A DNA stretch of 64,000 bases from Thermoanaerobaculia bacterium. GTDB taxonomy: Bacteria > Acidobacteriota > Thermoanaerobaculia > Multivoradales > J023. How positions within the stretch are numbered: position 1 is the first letter of the stretch; every line of letters starts with the position of its first letter. Both the position numbers and the translations under genes were made by a program. The stretch lies in assembly GCA_030431255.1 (NCBI GenBank), contig JAUIJL010000024.1:1-64000 (forward strand), read 5' to 3'. The notes under the pieces are model-generated. The model saw nothing but the letters and a program-made list of their open reading frames with translations. It had not been told where the DNA came from and searched no databases. Positions 28,534 to 37,524 of the stretch are shown one piece after another.

Positions 28534-28581
28534 TTGACAAACGGCTCCTAATCCACTATAACGATTTACTATAACGATTTA
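28534..28581 (+). promoter_or_regulatory. Sigma70 promoter with overlapping direct repeats
   Basis: TTGACA (28534-28539), a 17-base spacer and TATAAC (28557-28562) make a near-consensus promoter. The -10 lies in a 13-bp direct repeat, CTATAACGATTTA, at 28556-28568 and 28569-28581, so a second TATAAC occurs 13 bases on. The ATG of the GH3 gene follows 22 bases later. The repeats may be an operator for a sugar-responsive regulator, or a duplicated promoter box. Confidence 0.75.
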
Positions 28582-28602: not shown

Positions 28603-31098
28603 ATGCACGGGAGCCGTCTGCCTTCGAGAACTCTGTCAGCCACCGGGTCTAGAGCCGTTTCAAGGGCCCGCCGGCTCGTGCTTTGGATGTCGATCAGCTT
28701 GCTCTGGTCGCCGCTCGGATTCGCCCAAGAAGCGGAGGAGAGCGACATGGAAACGAAAATCAGCCGTCTTGTAGAGGCCATGACCCTCGAGGAGAAGGTG
28801 GGCCAGACGGCCCTGCGGGGCTTCAGCAGCCGGTCGGCCCAAAGCGCCGACGTGCTGGCGGACGCGATCCGGGCGGGGCGCGCGGGAGCGTTGCTCAACG
28901 TCATGGATCGACAGGTGGTCGACCAATTGCAGAAGGTCGCGGTCGAAGAGAGCCGGTTGGGCATTCCGCTGCTCTTCGCCCGGGACGTGATCCACGGCTT
29001 TCGCACCATCTTCCCGATCCCCCTCGGCCAAGCCGCTTCGTGGAGCCCCGAGCTGGTGGCCGCGGGCGCGCGAGTGGCGGCGGAGGAAGCGAGCACCTAC
29101 GGCATCCGTTGGACCTTCGCGCCTATGCTCGACATCGCCCGGGATTCCCGCTGGGGACGGATTGCCGAGTCGCCGGGCGAGGATCCTTTCCTGGCGGAAC
29201 GCATCGCCGAAGCCGCGGTGCGCGGGTTTCAGGGTGAGGATCCCACCTCGCCCACCAGCCTGGCGGCCTGTGCCAAGCATTTCGCGGCTTACGGCGCGGC
29301 CGAGGGGGGGCGAGACTACAACTCGGCCTTTGTGTCCGAGGCGCAGATGCGTAACGTTTATCTCAGACCCTTCGACGCCGCCGTGAGGGCCGGGGCGTTG
29401 ACCCTCATGACCGGCTTCAACGAGCTCAACGGCGTACCCGTGACCGCCGATCCCTGGTTGTTGACCGACGTTCTGCGCGGTCAGTGGGGTTTTGACGGAT
29501 TCGTGGTCAGCGATTGGGAGTCGGTGACCGAGATGATCGCCCACGGCTTCAGCCGCGATCCTGAGCACGCGGCGTCCCAGGCCATGCGGGCGGGCACGGA
29601 CATGGAAATGACCAGCCGAGCCTATGAAGATCATTTGGTGGAGCTGGTGCGGTCCGGTCAAGTGCCGGAGGCGGATCTCGACCGTGCGGTGGCCGGGATT
29701 CTGCGGGTCAAAATGAAGCTCGGCCTCTTCGACCATCCGTGGCGCGATGCGGGCCGGGACGACGTTTTGTTGGCGCCGGAATATCTCGACGAGGCCCGAA
29801 AGGCCGCGCGTCAAAGTCTGGTCTTGCTCAAGAATCAGGATCTCCTGCCGCTGGAACCGAGCCTCTCGAAAGTGGCGGTGGTGGGTCCGCTGGCGGACGC
29901 TCCCCACGAGCAGCTCGGCACCTGGACCTTCGACGGCAAAAAAGAACATAGCGTCACCCCCGTGACCGCTTTGCGGGATCGGCTGGGCAACGAGCGGGTG
30001 ATCTTCGCGCCGGGTCTCGCCTATTCCCGGGATCGATCCACCGAAGGATTCGCCGCGGCCCGAGCCGCCGCGGAGCAGGCGGACGTGGTGTTGTTCTTCG
30101 GTGGTGAGGAGGCCATCCTGTCGGGTGAGGCCCACAGTCGGGCGGACCTGCGGTTGCCCGGCGCCCAGGAAGCGCTGCTGACGCAGCTGGCGCAGCTCGA
30201 CAAGCCGATGGTCCTGGTGCTGATGGCAGGACGCCCCTTGACCGTGGAAGAGGTTCTGGACGAAGTCGATGCCCTGATGATGGCTTGGCACCCCGGCACC
30301 ATGGGTGGCCCGGCGATCGTCGATGTGCTCTTCGGCGACCACGGTCCCCAAGGACGTCTGCCGGTCACTTGGCCGAAAGCCGCTGGTCAAGAGCCGATCT
30401 ACTACAACCACAAAAACACGGGGCGTCCGGCACCGTCGCCCGGCGAGAAACAGCCCCTTCCCTTCGACGAAATTCCCGTGGGTGCCTGGCAGAGCTCCTT
30501 GAGCAATACCTCCCGCTACCTGGATCTGGGGTCCCGTCCACGGTTCCCGTTCGGCTTCGGTTTGACCTACACCACCTTTGAATATGGCGACTTGAAAGTC
30601 GGTGCCAGGCACTTATCCGAGGGTGGGGAAACCGGTGCCAGGCACTTATCCGAAGATACAGAAACCGGTGCCAGGCACTTATCCGAAACGCAATCGTCGG
30701 TCGTGCAGCTGACCCCTGACGGGGTTCTGACCGTGGAAGTCGAGCTCGCCAACACGGGTCCGCGGCCGGGCACGGAGGTCGTCCAGCTCTACACCCGGGA
30801 TTTGGTGGGCAGCTTGACCCGTCCCGTGCGCGAGCTCAAAGGATTCCAAAGCGTTGTTTTGAAGCCAGGTGAGTCCAGGACGGTGACCTTTGAGCTGCCG
30901 GCGTCGGCGCTGGCCTTTTTCAACCAAAAGGGCGAGTCGGTGCTCGAAGCCGGCGAATTCGAGCTTTGGGTGGGCGCCCACGCGGAAGACGCGCGTCTCG
31001 GCCGACGCTTCGAGCTGGTGGACCCGTCCGGAGATCCCCCGGTTTCTGGAGAAGACCAGGCTTCTGGAGAAGACCCGGCTTCTGGAGAAGACCTTTGA
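28603..31098 (+). CDS. Secreted GH3 beta-glucosidase-like glycosidase
   Basis: 831 residues from MHGSRLPSRTLSATGSRAVS, chosen for the AAGGAGACC upstream. A signal peptide ends near GFA-QE. The GH3 N-domain has KVGQTALRG, the GESPGEDPFL-like SPGEDPFLAERIAEAAVRGF, KHFAAYGAAEGGRDYN and the catalytic nucleophile Asp304 in FVVSDWESV. The C-domain has MAWHPGTMGGPAIVDVLFGD, and an FnIII-like domain closes the protein. Two oddities are visible. Residues about 667-698 are three tandem TGARHLSE units encoded by type C repeats. The C-terminus is an acidic SGEDPA repeat. It is the first gene of the gluconate operon and probably releases glucose in the periplasm. Confidence 0.92.
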   Translation: MHGSRLPSRTLSATGSRAVSRARRLVLWMSISLLWSPLGFAQEAEESDMETKISRLVEAMTLEEKVGQTALRGFSSRSAQSADVLADAIRAGRAGALLNVMDRQVVDQLQKVAVEESRLGIPLLFARDVIHGFRTIFPIPLGQAASWSPELVAAGARVAAEEASTYGIRWTFAPMLDIARDSRWGRIAESPGEDPFLAERIAEAAVRGFQGEDPTSPTSLAACAKHFAAYGAAEGGRDYNSAFVSEAQMRNVYLRPFDAAVRAGALTLMTGFNELNGVPVTADPWLLTDVLRGQWGFDGFVVSDWESVTEMIAHGFSRDPEHAASQAMRAGTDMEMTSRAYEDHLVELVRSGQVPEADLDRAVAGILRVKMKLGLFDHPWRDAGRDDVLLAPEYLDEARKAARQSLVLLKNQDLLPLEPSLSKVAVVGPLADAPHEQLGTWTFDGKKEHSVTPVTALRDRLGNERVIFAPGLAYSRDRSTEGFAAARAAAEQADVVLFFGGEEAILSGEAHSRADLRLPGAQEALLTQLAQLDKPMVLVLMAGRPLTVEEVLDEVDALMMAWHPGTMGGPAIVDVLFGDHGPQGRLPVTWPKAAGQEPIYYNHKNTGRPAPSPGEKQPLPFDEIPVGAWQSSLSNTSRYLDLGSRPRFPFGFGLTYTTFEYGDLKVGARHLSEGGETGARHLSEDTETGARHLSETQSSVVQLTPDGVLTVEVELANTGPRPGTEVVQLYTRDLVGSLTRPVRELKGFQSVVLKPGESRTVTFELPASALAFFNQKGESVLEAGEFELWVGAHAEDARLGRRFELVDPSGDPPVSGEDQASGEDPASGEDL
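30601..30686 (+). repeat. Three type C repeats inside the GH3 gene
   Basis: GGTGCCAGGCACTTATCCGA starts at 30601, 30634 and 30667, exactly 33 bases apart, so the reading frame is kept and each unit adds 11 residues (for example TGARHLSEDTE). The insert falls between the YTTFEYGDLKV strand and the next strand of the C-terminal domain, a loop position that tolerates insertion. Confidence 0.9.
31044..31093 (+). repeat. 18-bp coding repeats at the GH3 3' end
   Basis: TTCTGGAGAAGACC occurs at 31044, 31062 and 31080 (period 18), encoding SGEDxA. The last copy supplies GGAGAAG just ahead of the TTG start of the next gene (31095), so the repeat also acts as its ribosome-binding site. Confidence 0.85.
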
Positions 31099-33581
31099 GC
31101 TTCGGCGCGGCCCTCGGTCTCTTGGCGTTGGCGGTCGGGGTCCTGCTGGTCTTGGTGCTGGTTTTCCGCTTCCACGGCTTCCTGGCACTTTTGGCGGTCA
31201 GCCTGCTGGTCGCTTGGGTCGGTGGCGTCGCGCCGTTGGAGGTGGCGGGTCAAATTCAAACGGCCATGGGCGGCACCCTCGGATATATCGCCATCGTCAT
31301 CGGCTTGGGCGCGATTTTCGGCGAGATGTTGCAGCGCTCCGGCGGCGCGGAGGTGATCGCCCATCGCATGCTGAGCCGCTTCGGCAAGCGTCGAGCGCCC
31401 ACGGCCCTCGGCCTCACCGGTCTGGTGGTGGCGATCCCGGTGTTTTTCGACGTCGCCTTCATCCTCTTCGTGCCCCTGCTCAAGACCTTGAGCCGACGCA
31501 CGGGTCGTCCGTTGATCGGTTTCGCCATCCCGTTGCTGGCGGGTTTGGCCGTGGCCCACGCCTTCATTCCGCCGACCCCCGGTCCGGTGGCGGTCGCTGG
31601 TTTGCTGGGAGCGGACTTGGGTTGGGTGATCCTCTTCGGCCTGATCGCGGGCGTGCCCGCCTTGGCCGTGGCAGGGGTGTTTTTCGGCTCGGTGTTGGCC
31701 CGAGGGCCTCTGGGCGAGCTCAAAATCGATGAGGCTCCAAAGTCTGAAGAGGCGGAGTCCGATGATGCAGCAGGGGCAGAGACCGAGGGCGGTCCTGGAT
31801 TCGCGGAGGCGTTGGCCTTGGTGGCCCTGCCCTTGGTGCTGATCCTAACGGCCACCGTCTCCAAAGTCGGCATGGCGGAAGGCTCCGTGCGGACGCTGTT
31901 GCAGGTGGTGGGCCATCCCTTCGTCGCCCTCTTGTTGACCGTGGCCGCGGCTTGGATCCTGCTCGGCCGACGTTGCGGTTGGAGCAAACAGCAGCTGGAA
32001 GCCATGGCCGGCCGGTCGTTGGAGCCTGTGGGCGGGATCCTCTTGCTGACCGGTGCCGGCGGAGTGTTGGGAAAGATGCTGCTGGCCACCGGTGCCGGCG
32101 GTGTATTGGCGGAAGGCCTCAGCGACTCTGGGCTGCCCCTGCTGCTCTTGGGATTCGTCACCGCCTTGGCGTTGCGCATCGCCCAGGGGTCGGCCACGGT
32201 TTCCATGGTCACCGCCGCGGGTTTGATCGCGCCCCTCGTGGAAGCGGATCCGGTGAGCGGACGGGCCACTGCCGCGTTGGTGGTGGCGATTGCCGCCGGC
32301 GCCACCGCTTGCTCCCATGTCAACGACTCGGGTTTTTGGCTGGTGAGCCGATACCTGGGCCTAACGGAGAAAGAAACCTTGCGAAGCTGGACGTTGATGA
32401 CCGCGGGAGTGGGTGGAGTCGGATTCTTGGGTGTGTGGATCGCCTCGGCGTTGCTGGGCGGCTTCGGTGGGCAGGTCGAGGCTCGACCGTTGAACGAAGC
32501 GTCGCCAAATGAAACACCTTCGAAGATCGCAGCTGCCGATCCGTCGGCCGAGGCTCGCCTTGAGACCCTCGGTGAGCTAGAGGCCTGGGAGGTCGGCTTG
32601 GGTGGGTTGATCCCCGCCGACGCCAAGGTAGAAGTGATCGCCGAAGGATTCGAATGGGCGGAAGGTCCCGTATGGCTGCCCGACGAAGGCTCGGTGCTGT
32701 TCTCCGACGTGCCGACCAATCGGATCTACCGTTGGTCGGAGGCGGGTGGGCTGGACGTTTGGATGCAGGGATCGGGTTACACCGGTCAGGTGCCCCGGGG
32801 TGGCGAGCCCGGCTCCAACGGTCTGTTCATGGACGGTGCCGGGCACTTAGTTCTAGCCCAGCACGGGGATCGACGGATCGCACGATTGATCAGCCCGCGG
32901 TCGGAAGGACCTTTTGCTGCGGGTGAGGCCCGATTCGAGACCCTGGCCGACCACTTCCAAGGCAAGAAATTCCACAGCCCCAACGATTTGGTGATTAGCC
33001 GTGCGGGGGAGATCTTTTTCACCGACCCTCCCTACGGCTTGGAAGGCGGTTCCGACGGCCCGGGGCGAGAGCTCGGCTTCCAAGGCGTCTACTATCGCCC
33101 GGCGGGTGCAGAGAGCACCGTCCAGTTGTTGACCGACGAGCTCAGCCGTCCCAACGGCATCGCTTTGTCGCCGGACGAGAGAACCCTCTATGTCGCCAAT
33201 TCGGATCCCGAGCGGGCCCTGTGGATGGCCTACCCCCTGAGCGACGACCAAAAGTTGGTCAAAAAGCTCGGCGAAGGGCGTGTTTTCCACGACGCCACCG
33301 AGCGGGTCGGCGATGCAGACCCCGGGCTGCCCGACGGCATGGCCGTGGATGCGGCAGGGCACGTCTTCGCCACGGGTCCCGGTGGGGTTTGGGTCTTCGA
33401 TCCCCAGGGCAAGCCGCTCGGTCTCGTCCGCCTGCCTGTGCCGTCGGCCAATTGCACCTTCGGCGGAGCCGACGGCTCCACGCTCTTCATCACCGCCGAC
33501 AGTTATTTGCTGCGTCTGCGCACGACCACCCGTGGCCTGTACGGGGGGCCGCCGCGAGACGGCGGGCAACCGGGGGATTGA
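31095..33581 (+). CDS. Gluconate permease (GntP-like) fused to gluconolactonase (SMP-30)
   Basis: 828 residues, start TTG overlapping the GH3 stop (TTGA). Residues 1 to about 475 are a GntP/ion-transporter permease with about 12 spans (AVAHAFIPPTPGPVAVAGLL and ALRIAQGSATVSMVTAAGLI are GntP hallmarks). After a linker of about 45 residues, residues about 505-828 form an SMP-30/gluconolactonase propeller with metal and catalytic residues intact: EGPVW (Glu523), HSPNDLVIS, SRPNGIALSPDERTLY and LPDGMAVDAAGH. No stop or start separates the two halves. Inferred role: hydrolyse glucono-lactone and take up gluconate in one protein; the side of the membrane carrying the propeller is unclear. Confidence 0.88.
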   Translation: MSFGAALGLLALAVGVLLVLVLVFRFHGFLALLAVSLLVAWVGGVAPLEVAGQIQTAMGGTLGYIAIVIGLGAIFGEMLQRSGGAEVIAHRMLSRFGKRRAPTALGLTGLVVAIPVFFDVAFILFVPLLKTLSRRTGRPLIGFAIPLLAGLAVAHAFIPPTPGPVAVAGLLGADLGWVILFGLIAGVPALAVAGVFFGSVLARGPLGELKIDEAPKSEEAESDDAAGAETEGGPGFAEALALVALPLVLILTATVSKVGMAEGSVRTLLQVVGHPFVALLLTVAAAWILLGRRCGWSKQQLEAMAGRSLEPVGGILLLTGAGGVLGKMLLATGAGGVLAEGLSDSGLPLLLLGFVTALALRIAQGSATVSMVTAAGLIAPLVEADPVSGRATAALVVAIAAGATACSHVNDSGFWLVSRYLGLTEKETLRSWTLMTAGVGGVGFLGVWIASALLGGFGGQVEARPLNEASPNETPSKIAAADPSAEARLETLGELEAWEVGLGGLIPADAKVEVIAEGFEWAEGPVWLPDEGSVLFSDVPTNRIYRWSEAGGLDVWMQGSGYTGQVPRGGEPGSNGLFMDGAGHLVLAQHGDRRIARLISPRSEGPFAAGEARFETLADHFQGKKFHSPNDLVISRAGEIFFTDPPYGLEGGSDGPGRELGFQGVYYRPAGAESTVQLLTDELSRPNGIALSPDERTLYVANSDPERALWMAYPLSDDQKLVKKLGEGRVFHDATERVGDADPGLPDGMAVDAAGHVFATGPGGVWVFDPQGKPLGLVRLPVPSANCTFGGADGSTLFITADSYLLRLRTTTRGLYGGPPRDGGQPGD

Positions 33582-33585
33582 TCCA

Positions 33586-34110
33586 TTGAAGATTCAAGTC
33601 GTGATGTTGATGGGGGTCTGCGGCACCGGTAAATCGACGGTAGGTCGACTGCTGGCTCAGCGGTTGGCCTGGCCGTTTTTCGACGGCGACGACTTTCACC
33701 CCGAAGCCAATCGGAAAAAGATGGAGTCCGGCCAACCGCTGGATGACGACGACCGTCGTCCGTGGCTGGAGGCTTTGCGAGACCTGATCCGTCGTCGCCT
33801 CACCGCGGCGGGTCCGGCCGTTCTCGCCTGCTCTGCGCTGAAGCAAAGCTACCGGCAGCTGATGGTGCTGGACGATCCTCGGATTCTCTTGGTCCATCTC
33901 ACTGGTCCTCCCGAAATCCTCGCTCAACGCCTGCGTTTGCGTCGGGACCACTTCATGCCGCCGGGTCTGCTGGGCAGTCAGCTGCAAATCCTCGAGCCCC
34001 CGGGCGGAGAGGCCTTGACCCTCGATGTGGAGGCCTCTCCGGAAACCCTTTGCGACTTGATTCTCGAGGCAATGGAGACTCCGCGGGCGGCGGCGGCGGT
34101 TGAAAGATAA
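33586..34110 (+). CDS. gntK: Gluconate kinase
   Basis: 174 residues from TTG 33586 (read MKIQVVMLMGVCGTGKSTVG); ATG 33604 is an alternative. Walker A GVCGTGKS, FFDGDDFHPEANRKKMESGQ, PLDDDDRRPWLEALRD, CSALKQSYRQLM and VHLTGPPEILAQRLRLRRDH are the canonical gluconokinase order. It phosphorylates gluconate to 6-phosphogluconate for the Entner-Doudoroff or pentose phosphate route. It starts five bases after the permease-lactonase stop, completing a GH3, lactonase/uptake, kinase operon. Confidence 0.93.
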   Translation: MKIQVVMLMGVCGTGKSTVGRLLAQRLAWPFFDGDDFHPEANRKKMESGQPLDDDDRRPWLEALRDLIRRRLTAAGPAVLACSALKQSYRQLMVLDDPRILLVHLTGPPEILAQRLRLRRDHFMPPGLLGSQLQILEPPGGEALTLDVEASPETLCDLILEAMETPRAAAAVER

Positions 34111-35725: not shown

Positions 35726-35961
35726 GGGCGGGGATCTTCACATCCCGGCCGCTCAGATTCAACGCTTCCCTGGTGGGGATCTCCGGGTCGGCCCACAAAT
35801 CGGCCCTTACGGCAACAGGCTTGCCCGTGTCGGCAACCCAGCGCTCGAATTGTGCGGCGGTGCGGTATGCTGCAAGCTCCAAAGAGAAACGAGTCGGGCC
35901 CGCGCTTCGCCTCTGGTGCGACCCGGAGCCCACCCCTTGGCCCTGAGTGAGGTGTGTGTCC

Positions 35962-37524
35962 ATGGCAGATTCGAAGCAAAATGGCGGTGGCAGCCAGTCG
36001 GGATGGCTGAACCGCATCCTCAACGGTATCGAGGTAGCCGGCAACAAGCTGCCCGATCCAGCGATTCTTTTCTTGATCTTGATGGTGCTGACATGGTTCC
36101 TGTCGGCGCTTTTGGCACCGGTGCAATTCTCGGAGGTGCACCCGGGCACCGGTGAGCCGATCCGGATCGCCAATCAGCTGACGGGGGCGGCCATCGCCAC
36201 ATTCCTGGCGGATATGGTCAAGACCTTCACCGGCTTCCACCCTTTGGGGGTCGTGTTGGTGGCCCTGCTGGGCGTGGGTGTGGCGGAGCACACGGGTTTC
36301 ATCAACGCGGGCCTCAAATGGATGCTCGGATTCACCCCCAAAAGCCTGCTGACGCCGATGCTGATCTTGGTGGCGATCGTCAGCCACACGGCGGCGGACG
36401 CCGGATATGTGTTGGTCATACCCCTGGGCGGCGTGATTTTCTACGCCGCGGGACGACATCCCCTGGCGGGCATTGCGGCGGCGTTTGCCGGAGTTTCGGG
36501 TGGCTTCTCGGCCAACTTCATTCCGTCCGGAATCGATCCCTTGCTCCAGGGCCTCACCCAGGCGGGCGCCAATCTCATGGATCCCGATCTGCAGGTGAAC
36601 CCTCTCTGTAATTGGTGGTTCACCTCGGCGTCGTCGGTGCTGGTGATCCTGGTCGGTTGGTATTTGACCGACAAAGTCATCGAGCCGCGGCTGGAGGATA
36701 CGGAGATCGATGGCGATCCCGAGGAAATGCCGAAGATGGAGGCGATCACACCGGAAGAGCGCAAGGGCTTCTTCGCCGGTTTGGCGGCCATGTTCGTGTG
36801 CACGTTGCTGTTGATCCTCGCCACCGCCCCCGAGACATCTCCCATGCGTTCGCCGGACGGCCAAATCACCGCTTTCTCGGCGCCGCTCATGCAGTCGATC
36901 GTGCCGTTGATCTTCATCTTCTTCTTGATTCCCGGCGTGGTTCACGGTTTGGTCTCGGGCACGGTGAAGAAGTCCAAGGACGTGGTCGACGGCATGTCGA
37001 AGAGCATGGAGACCATGGGTTATTACCTGGTGATGGCTTTCTTCGCCGCCCTTTTCATCTACTCCTTCGGCAAGTCGAATGTCGGTATCTTGATCGCCGT
37101 CAAGGGCGCCAACGCCCTCAAGGCAGCCGGCATGCCCGGCCAAGTCACGATTGTCGGCATCGTTTTGCTGGCGGCCATAGTCAACCTTCTGGTGGGCTCG
37201 GCGTCGGCGAAATGGGCGATCCTGTCGCCGATCTTCGTGCCCATGTTGATGGCGTTGGGGCTGTCTCCCGAGCTCACTCAGGCTGCCTATCGCGTGGGCG
37301 ACTCCACCACCAACATCATCACCCCCTTGATGCCCTACTTCCCGTTGGTGGTGGTGTTCTGCCAACGCTATGTAAAGAAAACCGGCATCGGCACGGTGGC
37401 GGCGCTGATGCTGCCCTATTCGGTGTGTCTGTTGGTGTCCTGGACGATCTTCCTGATCGCCTATTGGATGCTCGGATTGCCCTTGGGTCTGCAGGCCGGT
37501 TACGTCTATCCTCCGGTTCCTTGA
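35962..37524 (+). CDS. AbgT-family transporter
   Basis: 520 residues. It starts MADSKQNGGGSQSGWLNRIL (RBS GAGGTG) and continues GIEVAGNKLPDPAILFLILM, the AbgT family N-terminus. FIPSGIDPLLQGLTQAGANL, NLLVGSASAKWAILSPIFVP and YRVGDSTTNIITPLMPYFPL are the conserved re-entrant and core motifs. About 11-13 spans. Known members import p-aminobenzoyl-glutamate or export sulfonamides; the substrate here is unknown. A strong terminator follows. Confidence 0.92.
   Translation: MADSKQNGGGSQSGWLNRILNGIEVAGNKLPDPAILFLILMVLTWFLSALLAPVQFSEVHPGTGEPIRIANQLTGAAIATFLADMVKTFTGFHPLGVVLVALLGVGVAEHTGFINAGLKWMLGFTPKSLLTPMLILVAIVSHTAADAGYVLVIPLGGVIFYAAGRHPLAGIAAAFAGVSGGFSANFIPSGIDPLLQGLTQAGANLMDPDLQVNPLCNWWFTSASSVLVILVGWYLTDKVIEPRLEDTEIDGDPEEMPKMEAITPEERKGFFAGLAAMFVCTLLLILATAPETSPMRSPDGQITAFSAPLMQSIVPLIFIFFLIPGVVHGLVSGTVKKSKDVVDGMSKSMETMGYYLVMAFFAALFIYSFGKSNVGILIAVKGANALKAAGMPGQVTIVGIVLLAAIVNLLVGSASAKWAILSPIFVPMLMALGLSPELTQAAYRVGDSTTNIITPLMPYFPLVVVFCQRYVKKTGIGTVAALMLPYSVCLLVSWTIFLIAYWMLGLPLGLQAGYVYPPVP

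Follow-up and report, generated by a model that had tools for sequence, protein, structure and literature searches.

Our aim was to establish whether a gluconate permease and a gluconolactonase really form one protein in a Thermoanaerobaculia bacterium, as an initial annotation of a 64,000-nucleotide stretch of its genome (hereafter the window) had proposed, and what such a protein would do. The locus comprises the following features, given by their coordinates in the window.

28603..31098, + strand: GH3 beta-glucosidase (BglX-like), first operon gene; Pfam GH3 N, C and Fn3-like domains; BglX 681.1 bits, cut-off 666 (NCBIfam)
31095..33581, + strand: permease-lactonase fusion gene, 828 amino acids; TTG start overlaps the GH3 stop (TTGA), as in the related genome G003
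31095..32459, + strand: GntP permease domain, residues 1-455; PF02447, E 3e-122; TIGR00791 over cut-off; 64% identity to the G003 permease
32460..32609, + strand: linker, residues 456-505; mostly pLDDT <50 (AlphaFold2); no signal peptide seen in three forward frames
32610..33539, + strand: SMP-30/gluconolactonase beta-propeller, residues 506-815; PF08450; PDB 3e5z and 3dr2 by sequence and fold
33601..34110, + strand: gluconokinase GntK; TIGR01313 155.6 bits, cut-off 113.75; start codon uncertain, 33586-33604

A permease and a lactonase share one reading frame

The window DNA contains a single open frame of 828 codons plus stop on the forward strand (TTG start at 31095, TGA stop at 33579-33581), which has no internal stop and is known from one assembled genome. 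Pfam was run on a longer form of the frame starting at 30966; counted from 31095, the GntP permease match spans residues ∼9-451 (408.9 bits versus 22.5, profile positions 5-438 of 440), and the SGL match (PF08450, E 7e-45, 153.9 bits versus 26.3, profile 1-244 of 246) spans residues ∼521-801. The permease half also exceeds the NCBIfam cut-off for gluconate:H+ symporters (TIGR00791, 372.9 bits versus 292.75). With one frame and two nearly complete domains, the proposed fusion is borne out. The permease is full length but ends at residue ∼455 rather than after ∼475 residues, and the linker is ∼50 residues long rather than 45. The lactonase is likewise complete: Glu-523, Asn-630, Asn-687, and Asp-747 are invariant across 12 aligned lactonases, in agreement with the annotated Glu-523 and Asn/Asp motifs. 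We take these residues to be the metal-binding Glu/Asn/Asp and the substrate Asn known from regucalcin structures.

The AlphaFold2 model, calculated with an alignment of 12 sequences covering the propeller half only, is confident over most of the propeller apart from a few weak loops, falls mostly below pLDDT 50 in the linker, and is unreliable for the permease (mean pLDDT 58.7, pTM 0.46). The propeller superimposes best on 3e5z (Z 39.5, 1.9 Å over 286 residues) and on the gluconolactonase XC5397 (3dr2; Z 38.6, 2.1 Å over 290 residues). It thus resembles these exported SMP-30/SGL enzymes in fold, sequence, and conserved active-site residues, but differs from them in being attached to a permease and in having no signal peptide of its own that we could see. 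The permease half is, by its profile matches, a member of the GntP gluconate:H+ symporter family with an added domain. Each half is an ordinary family member, and their joining is the variant part. Third-position G+C is high through most of the junction and dips to 0.52-0.56 in the linker, the dip being a point against our preferred explanation. The fusion is the sole match to either half within its own genome at E 0.001.

A relative carries the same operon with separate genes

The gene order in G003 is the same as in the window (GH3, GntP of 456 amino acids, SGL of 368 amino acids, GntK), and the G003 permease also overlaps the GH3 stop. There, 34 bp lie between the permease gene and a separate lactonase gene, which is preceded by an AGGAG and encodes a lipobox-type (lipoprotein-type) N terminus. 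The permeases share 64% identity and the lactonases 55-58%, depending on the stretch compared. In G003 the permease stops directly behind the last helix, whereas the window protein continues from the corresponding helix through GGFGGQVEARPLNEASPNETPSKIAAADPSAEARLETLGELEAWEVGLGG into the propeller, whose first residues, IPADA, are also the first propeller residues of the G003 lactonase. In G003, genes for an ECF sigma factor and a Ser/Thr protein kinase (L077:1233-4636) lie directly before the GH3 gene and may regulate the operon there.

Separate genes in all close relatives had been named by the initial annotation as one of two findings that would speak against a fusion. The genes are separate in the sole relative found with the operon, which points to a lineage-specific joining of neighbors and does not undo the fusion. 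From the two operons of the order that could be compared, the fusion is likely the derived, lineage-specific state; that polarity rests on few operons counts against our preferred explanation. Neither half has a match in the second genome of the genus, so that persistence of the fusion cannot be judged.

The junction argues against a concealed stop codon

We considered that the joined frame might be an artefact or a fresh mutation, in which an erroneous base conceals a stop codon and translation of the lactonase begins within the linker, giving a cytoplasmic protein. The linker does contain in-frame start codons, such as the TTG at 32490, which has GAGG eight bases upstream, the fusion is found in one genome only, and a single substitution could turn a linker codon into a stop. 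These last two points count against our preferred explanation, and a consensus error is formally possible. However, a stop alone could split the halves but would leave the lactonase without an export signal. The AGGAG and the signal of the G003 lactonase are both absent at the window junction, where we saw no lipobox or signal peptide in any of the three forward frames, including one that might have been hidden in another frame than that of the fusion. One false base would thus not restore the G003 arrangement.

Export signals are common among the relatives of the lactonase. A simple script rule, crude in both directions, scored one in 30 of 35 SGL matches from 33 loci (19 lipobox-type, 11 Sec-type, 5 neither). 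One genus (g7) contributes 15 of the 19 lipobox-type sequences, and an export signal is scored in 15/20 matches outside this genus. Doubtful calls are one in L005, scored as Sec-type inside a longer frame, and the lipobox of L029; L028, L030, and L032 fail the rule, although their N termini look hydrophobic. Three loci from the window's own genome, the G003 duplicate, one partial match, and matches without a locus were left out of the count. Set against these signals, an artefact or fresh mutation appears quite unlikely, and we favor a genuine fusion. Some lactonases of the same order (in L004, L005, and L019) lie within longer open frames that have another upstream stretch. In L004 and L005 this stretch contains the motif NGPISGSPTNFIW and two lactonase matches stand side by side, perhaps as another kind of fusion.

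No second fusion was found

Among the genomes sampled from the phylum, no second case of this domain order turned up. In the family, 2/7 genomes match, namely the window's own and G003, and these are also the two of 72 genomes in the order that match the permease half at 1e-12 (1/71 others); the class yields 2/148 at 1e-10. A phylum sample gave GntP matches in 33/396 genomes at 1e-10, of which the window's own is the only one with the fusion. Mostly four first-look candidates were scored per GntP genome in this draw, so that copies may be missed, and G003 lies outside it. All 31 GntP loci read by script outside the own genome (the best locus of 29 among the 32 other phylum genomes, together with G003 and one plasmid from Sphingomonas) reach a stop codon no more than 27 codons past the end of the permease match, whereas the window protein goes on for ∼370 residues; it is otherwise like the GntP symporters (PF02447, TIGR00791), with a whole domain over the subfamily cut-off. 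For G134, G168, G333, and further copies, frame length alone was used; at 176 to 635 codons, these frames are too short for both halves.

Several candidates were rejected. An 821-codon frame tabulated for G224 is the only one besides the window's able to hold both halves, but this length was not reproduced: the DNA (L035) gives 5 plus 447 codons, with a stop right after the permease. In L043, L045, and L052, the frames reach 586 to 646 codons because they extend upstream of the permease; in L060, the ORF of the permease has 448 codons. Fetched flanks of the lactonases on 12 named contigs contain no GntP at 1e-5. Genomes outside the phylum were covered by one pattern scan and by plasmid and phage records. 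At least 80% of the query was held in one place by 1/912 matching plasmid records, in which the genes are separate, and by 0/26 matching phage records; no GntP relatives were found in viral contigs. The first annotation knew of no characterized permease-lactonase fusion, and our search of open-licence full texts likewise yielded no publication that describes a GntP-lactonase fusion.

Charge pattern and export signals suggest a periplasmic propeller

We base the topology on charge pattern, because the permease model is of low confidence and sequence profiles found no GntP relative in the PDB at E 0.1. A motif script was tried on 31 GntP loci, of which 20 were parsed and 11 were not. In each of the 20 parsed proteins, 1-4 Lys/Arg immediately precede the last helix, and the C terminus is reached no more than 24 residues after this helix begins; a single Lys or Arg close to the tip is present in two of them. 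The loop before the last helix contains 1-3 Lys/Arg and also 1-3 Asp/Glu in six sequences viewed more closely, the acidic residues counting against our preferred explanation. By the positive-inside rule, these basic residues point to a periplasmic C terminus in GntP. The literature we found, including the available portion of PMC10372470, contains no experimental GntP topology.

As most relatives of the lactonase carry export signals and the GntP charge pattern suggests that the C terminus lies outside, the lactonase is probably held at the periplasmic side of the inner membrane, next to the importer to which it is tethered. The same two lines of evidence argue against a real fusion with a cytoplasmic propeller that would act on intracellular lactones. 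Animal regucalcin is a cytoplasmic SMP-30 relative, so such a location has precedent, but we regard it as highly improbable here. A signal peptidase might instead cut the chain after the last helix and free a soluble periplasmic lactonase, in which case the fusion would only equalize dose. By eye, the last helix followed by VEA resembles a signal sequence with a possible site at GGFGGQVEA-RP, and Sec-type signals occur in some relatives. However, transporters are rarely cut at internal helices, and we consider cleavage unlikely. The preferred reading remains a tethered periplasmic propeller on what would be a single intact polypeptide.

The operon probably connects to gluconate catabolism

The fusion is preceded by a GH3 gene and followed by a gluconokinase gene, as initially annotated; both assignments hold, the former by Pfam and NCBIfam and the latter over the NCBIfam cut-off. 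The GH3 gene has an ATG behind AGGAGA and encodes an N terminus that looks signal-like by eye; its end at 31098 overlaps the TTG start of the fusion by 4 bases (TTGA). Within it, three 33-base tandem copies at 30600-30698 encode a GARHLSE-type protein repeat, and 18-base tandem repeats at 31027-31093 occupy its extreme end, adjoining the fusion start. A perfect 13-base tandem repeat (ACTATAACGATTT, two copies, 28555-28580) just before the first operon gene is possibly a promoter or operator element. Beyond gluconokinase, an AbgT-family transporter gene (35947-37524; PF03806, E 1e-194) adjoins an HMGL-like lyase gene on the opposite strand.

The operon had been proposed to cover glucoside hydrolysis, lactone opening, uptake, and phosphorylation. 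Gene order, gluconokinase, and the presence of Edd and Eda agree with this scheme, but the oxidation step is missing: GH3 releases a sugar, and no operon gene would oxidize it to a lactone, so that the operon alone does not run from glucoside to lactone. The genome encodes six GSDH-family genes elsewhere (seven matches, two in one frame), and nothing ties any of them to the fusion operon. The lactone may come from GSDH-type glucose oxidation or from GH3 acting on an oxidized glucoside. A PqqC search gave no match in G000 or G003, and the controls were likewise all without a match. Genes for Edd and Eda, both over their cut-offs, lie close together on one contig beside a glucose-6-phosphate dehydrogenase gene. 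With gluconokinase, Edd, and Eda present, gluconate can be phosphorylated and enter the Entner-Doudoroff pathway. A Pfam search of the genome found no 6-phosphogluconate dehydrogenase; the same search was positive in 9/14 controls.

Discussion

Our analysis makes it probable that the window encodes a real, lineage-specific fusion of neighboring genes, in which a periplasmic propeller is tethered to an importer and hands its product, gluconate, to the attached permease. A deletion or rearrangement would have eliminated the stop codon of the permease together with the spacer and the lactonase export signal, joining the last helix to the mature enzyme. Since this helix would exit to the periplasm, we propose that it has taken over the anchoring formerly done by lipid. 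The propeller would stay in the periplasm at the mouth of the importer and hydrolyze an aldonolactone, of which the likeliest is glucono-1,5-lactone, giving gluconate; xylono- and other lactones are possible substrates as well. The permease would then take up gluconate with a proton, and gluconokinase would form 6-phosphogluconate for Edd and Eda. A bolder version, which we think rather doubtful, is a coupled import machine: the propeller would sit over the outer mouth of the permease, with the last helix in place of the lipid anchor, and each opened lactone would yield one gluconate anion plus one proton, exactly what the symporter takes up, so that local hydrolysis would supply and in part power uptake.

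Fused transporter-enzyme proteins are a known kind, and the window fusion fits it by its ORF and by the separate genes in one relative. Sodium symporters fused to sialic-acid mutarotase propellers would be a parallel; the portions of the literature returned by our search do not report such symporters. LplT and Aas are neighbors in many bacteria and form one ORF in some, the fused forms being uncharacterized according to the available part of PMC11416262. In both cases, transporter and pathway enzyme share one ORF and are separate operon genes in relatives (in one relative for the window fusion), but the families are unrelated. In LplT-Aas, the enzyme works on the cytoplasmic face once transport has taken place, whereas that of the window probably acts outside before transport.

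GntP and SGL also occur as separate genes in one cluster, as in the G003 operon, on a plasmid of Sphingomonas parapaucimobilis (NZ_CP155753.1), where a porin gene lies between them and L-rhamnonate dehydratase and AraD1 genes follow. This cluster suggests a functional link between GntP and SGL; the genes that follow point to another sugar acid, and its substrate may differ. In Pseudomonas taiwanensis growing on xylose, the available sections of PMC11252243 describe lactonase and GntP as acting in series on xylonolactone and xylonate, with GntP as one of two importers of xylonate. Growth improved when increased lactonase was combined with derepression of gntP, whereas deletion of gntP alone left growth unchanged and its overexpression changed little. 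Fusing the two activities may improve flux.

Periplasmic opening of lactones followed by sugar-acid uptake is a route to oxidized sugars in some bacteria. The natural single-chain version described here would allow a direct test of whether tethering an enzyme to an importer speeds flux, and its C-terminal soluble domain offers a natural means of placing the topology of the GntP family.
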